Origin: a virus
Length of the DNA: 35,998 nt
Direction: 5' to 3' (one strand)
IMG/VR virus record: IMGVR_UViG_3300011115_000345
Span: 1-35,998 of that record
The number at the start of each line of letters is the position of its first letter. Position 1 is the first letter of the stretch. The translations under genes and the position numbers were made by a program. The notes under the pieces are model-generated. The model ran no database searches and had not been told where the DNA came from. It was given only the letters and a program-made list of their open reading frames with translations. This document shows positions 34,364 to 35,998 of the stretch, piece after piece.

Positions 34364-34906
34364 ATGGAAATCATCATCAAAGACGCGCGCCTGTCGTACC
34401 CCACCCTGTTCCAAGCCCGCGAGTTCAAGGCCGGCGACGGCAAGCCCCGTTGGAGTGCAGCGTTCATCATCGAGCCGGGTAGCGACAACGACAACCACAT
34501 CAAGGCGGCCATCGAGTCCGAGGCCAAGGCCATCTGGGGCGCCAAGGCCTCAGCCATCCTCAAGACCGTGATGGGGCAGTCCAACAAGTACTGCTACAAC
34601 GACGGCAGCACCAAGGCCAACGAGGAGTACCAAGGCAAGATGGTGCTGGCGACCCACCGCTCGGCCAAGCTGACCCGCCCGCTGATCATCGACCGGGACA
34701 AGAGCCCGCTGACCAGCGACGACAGCAGGCCTTACGGCGGCTGCTACGTCAACGCCAAGGTCGAGATTTACTGCCAGACGGGCGAGAATACCGGAGTGCG
34801 TGCCAGCTTCTCGGTGATCCAGTTTTCCCGGGATGGCGAGCCGTTCTCGGCCAGCGTGCCATCCGACGTCGGCTTTGACGATCTGGGCATCGACGACTTG
34901 GTCTGA
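34364..34906 (+). CDS. DUF2815 single-stranded DNA-binding protein
   Basis: 180 residues beginning MEIIIKDARLSYPTLFQARE, then KPRWSAAFIIEPGSDNDNHI and MVLATHRSAKLTRPLIIDRD, ending FDDLGIDDLV. I recognise DUF2815, an OB-fold family related to T7 gp2.5-type single-strand binding proteins. The acidic C-terminal tail ending in a hydrophobic residue is the usual protein-docking tail of such proteins. It follows the DUF2800 nuclease by 17 bases and precedes the DNA polymerase, as expected. Confidence 0.88.
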   Translation: MEIIIKDARLSYPTLFQAREFKAGDGKPRWSAAFIIEPGSDNDNHIKAAIESEAKAIWGAKASAILKTVMGQSNKYCYNDGSTKANEEYQGKMVLATHRSAKLTRPLIIDRDKSPLTSDDSRPYGGCYVNAKVEIYCQTGENTGVRASFSVIQFSRDGEPFSASVPSDVGFDDLGIDDLV

Positions 34907-34913
34907 TTTTCGG

Positions 34914-34963
34914 GGGGAAAGCTGCCGATATTGTGGGTTCATCCATGTGCGGCGAGTACCCCC
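34914..34963 (+). ncRNA. Structured element, copy 1 of a tandem pair
   Basis: 50 bases. Predicted stems: P1 GGGG (34914-34917) with CCCC (within 34959-34963); P2 GCTGC (34921-34925) with GCGGC (34949-34953); P3 TGTG (34932-34935) with CATG (34944-34947), with one more G-C pair possible inside. The internal loop between P1 and P2 has AAA facing GAGTA, the letters of a loop E (AGUA/GAA) motif. Two further G's precede P1. It lies 8 bases after the single-strand binding protein stop. Confidence 0.65.
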
Positions 34964-34975
34964 ACCCCCTTTTCA

Positions 34976-35025
34976 GGGGAAAGTTGCCACCATTGCGGGT
35001 CTATACGCAGGCAGCGAGTACCCCC
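34976..35025 (+). ncRNA. Structured element, copy 2 of a tandem pair
   Basis: 50 bases, 37 identical to copy 1 in an ungapped alignment. P1 GGGG (34976-34979) with CCCC (within 35021-35025); P2 GTTGC (34983-34987) with GCAGC (35011-35015); P3 TTGCG (34993-34997) with CGCAG (35006-35010). TTTTT follows directly at 35026-35030, so with P1 this could end a transcript. The next gene's ribosome site (GGAG, 35038-35041) lies 13 bases downstream. Confidence 0.65.
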
Positions 35026-35049
35026 TTTTTACACACTGGAGATACACAC

Positions 35050-35244
35050 ATGAGCGCGATGAAAGAACAACTGTGGGCCATGGTCGAGGCCATCGACGAG
35101 GTATTCGGCGAAGGCTACGCCAAGAAGAACCCCGACTTGGTGGGACGGATGATGCAGGCCGAGCAGACCGGCTTCGCGGCGTACCAGATCAGCGAGGCCT
35201 TCCACCGTCTGGTGGAGGCAAAAGACGGGGAGATGGTGAAATGA
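35050..35244 (+). CDS. Small unknown protein (64 aa)
   Basis: Starts MSAMKEQLWAMVEAIDEVFG with a TGGAGATACACAC site, the same leader sequence as the first cassette gene. All-helical look (LVGRMMQAEQTGFAAYQISE, AFHRLVEAKDGEMVK). It lies directly downstream of the tandem structured element and may be controlled by it. ATGA overlap with the next gene. No family recognised. Confidence 0.75.
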   Translation: MSAMKEQLWAMVEAIDEVFGEGYAKKNPDLVGRMMQAEQTGFAAYQISEAFHRLVEAKDGEMVK

Positions 35245-35591
35245 CGTTAAACCTTCTAGACCTTTTAAAAAGTCAACTAAACGATTTTCAATTAGAAAAA
35301 CTTGACGGAAAAAGATTTACTCGTAACGATGACGCGGCAGGGGTTGCTAACGAAAGAGTCATGCGAGCGCATGAGTGGGCCCGGGGATTTGCTTATGCCA
35401 AAACCAAAAACGACATAGACGACAAGGTTCTAAACGCCCATGACCACAAAGGATGCCTAACCGTTACATGGTCAGAAATGCCTGACGCTACTGAAATTGA
35501 GGCTTATAACTTGGCATGGGTAATTAGCGCAAACGAAAATGATGTTGATCATAAGCTATTTCAATACGAAATAATAGAGCGTGATATATAA
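35241..35591 (+). CDS. Unknown AT-rich gene (116 aa)
   Basis: Starts MTLNLLDLLKSQLNDFQLEK at an ATGA overlap; the longer frame reaching upstream is a shadow of two other genes. Contains ANERVMRAHEWARGFAYAKT and CLTVTWSEMPDATEIEAYNL, an alpha-beta layout. Its codons prefer A and T at third positions, unlike the GC-rich genes on either side, which suggests recent arrival from another phage or host. Function unknown. Confidence 0.72.
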   Translation: MTLNLLDLLKSQLNDFQLEKLDGKRFTRNDDAAGVANERVMRAHEWARGFAYAKTKNDIDDKVLNAHDHKGCLTVTWSEMPDATEIEAYNLAWVISANENDVDHKLFQYEIIERDI

Positions 35592-35614: not shown

Positions 35615-35998
35615 ATGCGAACCCTATACCTCGATCTGGAGACGTACTCCGAGACGTCCATTACGCATGGCACCCATGCCTATGCCGCAGATGCAGCGAT
35701 CCTGCTATGCGCATGGGCATGGGACGATGCCCCGGTGCAGGTGCTGGACCTTACCCTGCCCAACACCCGCCCCGACGGCATAATGGCGGCCCTTGGGTTC
35801 CCCAACACCGAGGTGGTGATCCACAACAGCCACTTCGACCGCACGGTGATCCGGCACGTCTGGGGCGTCGACATCCCCACCGACCGCATCCACGACACCA
35901 TGGTGCAGGCCATGGCGCACCGCCTGCCGGGTAGCCTCGGCATGCTCTGCGAGGTGCTGGGCCTGCCCGCCGACCAGGCCAAGGACCAGGACGGCAAG
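35615..35998 (+). CDS. DNA polymerase, family A, with 3'-5' exonuclease (N-terminal part)
   Basis: 128 residues before the window ends. The exonuclease motif I is LYLDLETYSE (Asp7, Glu9), and motif II is VVIHNSHFDRTVI with Asn71 and Asp75, followed by IHDTMVQAMAHRLPGSLGML. This is the proofreading domain of phage DNA polymerase I-type enzymes that follow DUF2800/DUF2815 genes. The polymerase domain lies outside the window. The start codon is preceded by a poor ribosome site (CAGCACATACACAC). Confidence 0.88.
   Translation, partial: MRTLYLDLETYSETSITHGTHAYAADAAILLCAWAWDDAPVQVLDLTLPNTRPDGIMAALGFPNTEVVIHNSHFDRTVIRHVWGVDIPTDRIHDTMVQAMAHRLPGSLGMLCEVLGLPADQAKDQDGK

Follow-up and report, generated by a model that had tools for sequence, protein, structure and literature searches.

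The stretch of 35,998 nt analysed here (the window; an IMG/VR virus record, all coordinates referring to its + strand) contains two adjacent repeats, at positions 34914-34963 and 34976-35025, located between a gene for a single-stranded DNA-binding protein and a small open reading frame (Table 1), which raises the question of what these repeats are and what role they may play between two phage genes. Re-alignment confirmed the description given in an initial annotation of this DNA, namely two 50-base units that align without gaps and are identical at 37 of 50 positions (74%), with a start-to-start distance of 62; the unit that is truly conserved is slightly larger than had been described, consisting of TTTTC, P1, core, P1' and ACC (34907-34966 in copy 1). 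When compared with dinucleotide shuffles, copy 1 folds with a z-score of -2.07 (7 of 200 shuffles being equally good) and copy 2 with one of -2.86 (1 of 200), while the 141-nt region as a whole folds no better than its shuffles (z -0.37). Taken alone, the two copies of the window are thin evidence for a structured RNA, and the matter was settled because homologues were found beyond them. The repeats belong to a family of folded RNA elements that had not been catalogued before and is widespread in uncultured phages, and the element is almost certainly a conserved RNA. Members of the family consist of a P1 helix of any sequence, an invariant loop-E-like GAAA/GAGUA junction, a short P2 helix, which carries an RGA bulge in some of them, and an apical hairpin that is free to vary.

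Table 1 Features of the window at and around the two repeats.
Feature	Position	Strand	Evidence
DUF2815 / Enc34-like ssDNA-binding protein gene (PF10991)	34364..34906	+	Pfam E = 4.9e-29; ORF table
U-rich spacer TTTTC, stop codon to P1, 5 nt (family mode 5-7)	34907..34911	+	Sequence; family statistics
Element copy 1, class B (without RGA bulge)	34912..34966	+	Model R2 E = 2.3e-9
Linker ACCCCCTTTTC, being the ACC flank of copy 1 and the TTTTC spacer of copy 2	34964..34974	+	
Element copy 2, class B	34976..35025	+	Model R2 E = 0.022
TTTTT 3' of copy 2, not scored as intrinsic terminator	35026..35030	+	Terminator scan
64-residue ORF, downstream of the elements, no family match	35050..35244	+	
DNA polymerase A-type gene start, 3'-5' exonuclease domain slightly under Pfam cut-off	35615..35998	+	

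The DUF2815 cistron, which terminates with TGA at 34904-34906, precedes both elements. In copy 1, P1 is formed by GGGGG (34912-34916) and CCCCC (34959-34963), followed by a loop-E-like junction in which GAA (34917-34919) and A34920 lie opposite G34954 and AGTA (34955-34958); P2 (GCUGC/GCGGC) then leads into a variable apical hairpin, and the 3' flank ACC occupies 34964-34966. Copy 2 is less typical, possessing a P1 of 3 bp (GGG/CCC) and no ACC flank; its loop-E letters are GAA (34979-34981) and AGTA (35017-35020), and its P2 (GUUGCC/GGCAGC) is again followed by a variable hairpin. A GGAG at 35038-35041 is located ahead of the 64-residue ORF.

The family was collected from IMG/VR by means of the pattern GGGGAAAGN{20,40}GCGAGTACCCC, in which the outer letters were fixed and which matched 116 stretches, and by scans in which either P1 or the loop-E letters were left free, each of these matching at least 120 stretches. 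The family is larger than the collected set, which holds at least about 200 distinct cores (183 of class A and 17 of class B). Class A has the general arrangement P1-GAAAGC-RGA-UGC-P3-G(U|AC)-GCA-GCGAGUA-P1', and class B, to which both window copies belong, corresponds to class A minus the RGA bulge and the 3' bulge, the lack of both being visible in the alignment of copy 1 to a family model (R2). The inner letters of class A were set by the search patterns and their invariance is therefore partly imposed; P1, P3 and the flanks were not set, except for GGGG/CCCC in two of the scans. Most contigs carry one element, so that the tandem arrangement of the window is unusual, although L119 and L120 also carry two.

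The proposal of the initial annotation that the repeats form a structured RNA with compensatory changes is borne out by the homologues, which covary in P1 and P3. In P1, all five pairs show double changes, with a covariation score of 0.406 as compared to 0.099 for shuffled alignments, and 93% of the P1 cells are paired as opposed to at most 57% in slid registers; the P1 covariation result is the same for a set from which the window copies are excluded. When P1 was left free in the search, its three inner pairs were found as GGG/CCC, GCC/GGC, GGC/GCC, GCT/AGC, AGG/CCT, ATT/AAT, CGG/CCG, CAC/GTG, GAC/GTC, CAA/TTG and others. In P3, pair 3 scored 0.79 (0.43 when shuffled) and pair 4 scored 0.61 (0.37 when shuffled), and in the second tandem element of L119 the P2 pairs GC/GC have become AC/GT. 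Model R2, from whose construction the window copies and their closest relatives had been excluded, returned exactly two matches when the whole window was searched, these being the two copies.

The junction between P1 and P2, with AAA opposite GAGTA, had already been likened to a loop E, and it proved to be essentially invariant: with these letters left free, AAAG/GAGTA was retained in 128 of the 129 distinct matches listed, the exception appearing to be spurious, and both window copies carry the invariant GAAAG...CGAGTA. By its sequence signature the GAA/AGUA junction would adopt the loop E or bulged-G (sarcin-ricin) fold, a three-dimensional building block found in many RNAs. The element resembles that motif in that GAA faces AGUA, with a helix on either side, and in the A.G that comes next; the bulged-G motif is a building block and not a family, whereas the phage elements form a new family around it as their fixed centre. 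A protein-coding reading, under which the region would match a translated gene, is not supported: the three frames are about equally represented among the core lengths (61/56/50 modulo 3), which argues against translation, and with interiors varying freely in length there is no conserved frame. Length modulo 3 was used as the coding test instead of the count of cores with a stop in all frames (17 of 167).

That no named RNA would match this consensus was supported by Rfam 15, for which no match at the gathering threshold was obtained in the window, nor at the element in any of 18 additional loci; at E-values of up to 10 nothing credible was found, the best sub-threshold overlap being 14.4 bits to an unrelated HCV model. 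The family is comparable to candidate motifs of the Weinberg/Breaker type and to Rfam 15 families as a class of RNA motif from comparative genomics of phages and metagenomes, and differs from catalogued motifs in that no Rfam 15 family reaches threshold over the loop-E element. Further copies in related phages, as anticipated, were found among IMG/VR relatives. When 50,697 phage records were searched by BLAST with the window and consensus elements, the only real hits were two Manatee Spring assemblies, MW202462 and its twin MW202544, the former carrying TAA-acttaac-TGAGG...CCTCA-ACC between two annotated genes; one Manatee Spring element was verified with model R2. A plasmid search yielded no credible match, and literature searches by motif letters and by topic yielded nothing relevant to the element. 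In a scan of GTDB genomes, the real matches fell mainly in Betaproteobacteria (Limnohabitans, Bordetella genomosp. 7, Comamonas odontotermitis, Pelomonas and Pusillimonas) and in one contig of an Armatimonadetes MAG, while matches in Psychrobacter, Chryseobacterium, Rhizobium, Imhoffiella, Desulfocapsa and Crocinitomicaceae are without P1 and were set aside as apparent chance hits. Among 299 other genomes from the order to which Limnohabitans belongs, a single one contained a match, and the element is therefore phage-borne rather than a host RNA. A covarying RNA family common in uncultured phages is thus absent from Rfam and essentially absent from the collection of sequenced phages.

The elements are oriented in the sense direction of their operon, and in 181 of the 249 collected cases P1 starts 5-7 nt past the stop of an ORF running in the same direction (4-8 nt in 207), a tight spacing that may in part result from compact genomes, with a limit set by the terminating ribosome. 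The T content of the spacer is 51%, compared to 24% behind other stops, TAA is the preferred stop codon, and a C immediately precedes P1 (position -1) in 122 of 200 elements. The sequence RN|WUU occurs in 71 of 161 spacers versus 251 of 2208 control stops, AU-richness being a confounder of this comparison, and the window spacer, GA|UUU, fits it. P1' is followed by RCC in 169 of 200 stop-linked elements as opposed to 4 of 125 other post-stop hairpins of the same contigs, and RCC is therefore specific to the loop-E family. Copy 1 displays both the stop spacing (5 nt) and the ACC after P1'; copy 2 alone displays neither, being located 9 nt behind the ACC of copy 1 and lacking its own, and as the sole copy of L064 it starts 6 nt past the stop.

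Neighbouring genes are diverse, with at least 59 upstream and at least 92 downstream protein families among the collected loci, and the suggested links to DUF2815 and to the 64-residue gene are consequently not supported as specific ones, DUF2815 being just one of several SSB-type neighbours. Prominent SSB-like upstream families are Enc34/DUF2815 (phrog_112), DUF669 and acidic-tail proteins ending in DDDIPF or similar; others include Pam3_Gp34, phrog_27714, Gp157 and a family of small Cys-rich peptides. The latter (L227:4405-4611 and 18 relatives) are secreted-looking (..CTYNTYCDQGRCVTCTTCCYG..), are frequent upstream neighbours and match neither Pfam nor PHROG. Downstream genes, often within 7-30 nt of the element, encode DNA polymerase A, AEP-type primase, DUF927, MazG, PDDEXK and HTH proteins. 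A minority of the elements occupy other positions: at +1 of a sigma-70 promoter scoring 11/12 (L140) or 12/12 (L212), or judged as such by eye (L181, L159); 4 nt behind a tRNA-Leu gene (L202); directly behind another element (the window, L119, L120 and L125); and as the 3'-terminal part of a larger conserved non-coding RNA. In this last group (L137, L166, L194 and L314-L320), a conserved non-coding domain of about 150 nt (GGCAGCTCAGCCGNNTGCGTAGAGC) ends in the loop-E element in 10 of 10 contigs, and no Rfam match to it was obtained in the five contigs scanned. The loop-E core occurs without a regular P1 in non-coding regions near tRNA genes of L160 (11350-11760), L279 and L289, with a perfect stem of about 15 bp further along in L160. 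In Bordetella phage BPP-1 (L299:4549-4667), a plain GC hairpin and no element is located 4 nt past the stop of the DUF2815 homologue bbp40, and in Pseudomonas phage Rollin a plain hairpin lies past the stop of the related gene.

Tentatively, and with somewhat less than even confidence, we interpret the element as a cis-acting intercistronic signal for mRNA processing or stability. It would act in cis, between the cistrons of a polycistronic phage mRNA, where a host endonuclease would cut; this could be RNase E, acting within the U-rich spacer, or RNase P, directed by the 3' RCC to the junction of C and P1. The cut would separate the upstream message, often that of an SSB needed in bulk, from the downstream replication genes, and the rigid hairpin would then cap and protect the newly generated end; elements at promoters, with P1 starting from about +1, would provide a direct cap for the 5' end. 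The flanks probably carry the cleavage or recognition information and the core would supply the rigid fold, because the flanks are unchanged when combined with another type of core (type III: stop-TTTTC-GGGGGG...CCCCCC-ACC-SD). RNase E would be favoured by the U-rich spacer and RNase P by the RCC, with no preference given to either. RN|WUU is the core motif of RNase E, sites of which are enriched around stop codons (PMC5222698), while a 3' RCC pairs with GGU of the RNase P RNA (PMC11143913). Pre-tRNA and pre-4.5S RNA, RNase P substrates with a 3' RCC(A), resemble the element in having a mostly G-initial helix, a single-stranded 5' leader and R-C-C directly behind the 3' strand, but the element has no T-arm or tRNA fold, carries U instead of A after RCC, and its cleavage is putative. 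For the cip-cel operon it is established that stem-loops between genes determine where the message is cut and how stable its ends are (PMC10311766), and these stem-loops similarly lie in the gap between cistrons of one mRNA, with a proposed function as cleavage guide or end protection by which neighbouring genes reach different levels. They share no sequence or core, unlike the phage-borne family with its invariant loop-E core, conserved flanks and fixed stop distance, for which cleavage is a proposal derived from sequence.

Counted for the processing interpretation are the P1 covariation, the fixed loop-E letters, the tight stop spacing over 59 upstream families, the RCC behind P1 and the U-rich spacer with its RN|WUU sites, along with the type III core in the same flank frame, the plain post-stop hairpins in BPP-1 and Rollin, and the elements at +1 of the L140 and L212 promoters; elements in such a promoter position also argue against a role confined to protecting the 3' end of the upstream gene. 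Counted against it are the presence of the core inside larger non-coding RNAs (the L137 group, L160, L279 and L289), where no cistrons are separated, and the lack of ACC in copy 2; AU-richness alone may account for the RN|WUU enrichment, and the stop spacing could be mere genome compactness. A plain hairpin would suffice for protection, so that the invariant loop E (and, in class A, the RGA and G(U|AC) bulges) is suggestive of a specific partner, which the processing model does not name.

Such a partner is central to an unlikely alternative, one of the two main rivals besides put-like antitermination, according to which the element is a site bound by a specific protein or ligand (SSB autoregulation, a loop-E-reading ribosomal protein or a phage repressor) or the precursor of a stable, trans-acting small RNA. 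It would account for the many invariant core letters beyond those needed for pairing, for the strong association with SSB-type genes and for the reuse of the core in larger non-coding RNAs, but the apical loop is hypervariable, class B is without the RGA and G(U|AC) features, and neither an expression platform nor a terminator switch was seen. SSB-specific autoregulation as a general rule was rejected given the 59 upstream families, among them unrelated ones such as the small Cys-rich peptides. A processed pair of small RNAs, as proposed in the initial annotation, is a conceivable reading of the tandem repeats but finds no support in the present results. A CsrA sponge (GGA in class A) was discarded, as class B has no GGA and some class A members have AGA. 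We also see little likelihood of an antiterminator of the put type, in which the nascent RNA would bind the host RNA polymerase in cis and cause it to resist pausing and termination through the rest of the early or replication operon. The precedent is the putRNA of phage HK022, a structured RNA of about 70 nt encoded by putL, just downstream of PL, and putR, about 270 nt downstream of the PR start (PMC9378689); like the element, this is a short structured phage RNA acting in cis and sometimes located at a transcription start. Antitermination would explain a rigid loop-E RNA in untranslated gaps of long operons and the elements that begin at promoter +1. However, putRNA has two stem-loops of another architecture, near promoters and with no stop-codon linkage, whereas the family (classes A and B) has one stem-loop per element, mostly behind genes inside operons; the Rfam scan shows no resemblance, the comparison containing no put model, and the conserved RCC and U-rich flanks would be given no role. 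If the element is either a processing or an antitermination signal, these phages would own a compact, exchangeable RNA part that sets SSB and polymerase levels from one transcript, and the fixed stop distance and conserved flanks render the mechanism directly testable.

The turnover of the elements bears on a further, improbable explanation, namely a mobile or recombinogenic DNA element (a cassette boundary, REP-like or attC-like) with a hairpin that forms in DNA. L064 and L110, about 97-99% identical to the window, contain only copy 2, the difference being the gain or loss of exactly one 62-bp unit between TTTTC repeats; L043, L104 and L061 (84, 80 and 70% identical around the site) have unrelated interiors at the same site, and 24 loci share one and the same interior, their neighbours representing 5 upstream and 10 downstream protein families. 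In L122 and L149, however, the P1 helices around identical interiors differ yet remain paired, an indication of recombination at the arms of a functional RNA and not of insertion, and such recombination at conserved arms would account for the turnover with no need for transposition. Neither a transposase link nor a target-site duplication was seen, the elements keep a fixed sense orientation and stop spacing, the conservation of loop E is a signature of RNA, and there is usually one copy per contig; the mobile-DNA reading is thus already weakened by fixed orientation and RNA-type covariation. An intrinsic or Rho-linked transcription terminator is highly improbable; the initial annotation had noted the TTTTT after copy 2 and had considered a terminator-linked sensor. 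The GC-rich P1, the U-rich tail of many members and this TTTTT speak for a terminator, but the tail starts with a conserved ACC before the U-rich sequence, so that the GC stem is not directly followed by a U tract, TTTTT is not a conserved part of the flank, no terminator was detected there by the scan, the next gene often lies only 7-30 nt away, and some elements begin at promoter +1.

A 116-aa ORF without family match (35241-35591) lies in a stretch of the window that is missing from the near-identical L064 and L110 and therefore represents a recent insertion or deletion.

These phages possess at least four exchangeable RNA modules, including the loop-E element, and its companions suggest a wider uncatalogued RNA repertoire. 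It is conceivable, though rather doubtful, that the element, as part of this set distributed over gene gaps, promoters and larger non-coding RNAs, serves a single host machine as its dedicated docking RNA (either RNase P, by mimicking tRNA ends, or RNA polymerase), and hence represents a new cis-acting class of phage RNA that reprograms mRNA fate. The type III module, TTTTC-GGGGGG-ATGCGTACTCCATG...GAGGCAAGT-CCCCCC-ACC, was found in 9 contigs, with a different core in the same stop/ACC/SD frame in L308, L310, L311 and L313, and in tandem with a loop-E element in L125, L135 and L259. A type II hairpin, ACACGCATG[AG]GGATTG...CAGTCC[CT]CAGCCGTGT, is present in 102 viral stretches (such as L166:6804-6860, L163:8036-8098 and L321-L397), often in long gaps and sometimes adjoining a loop-E element. 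A type IV hairpin, CGGGAAACAGTGTCGAGTATCGGGTTAGC...AATAGACACTGC.CAATGTGAGTCGGCATTGTTTCCC, follows the element in L125 and L135 and the type III module in L309 and L312.
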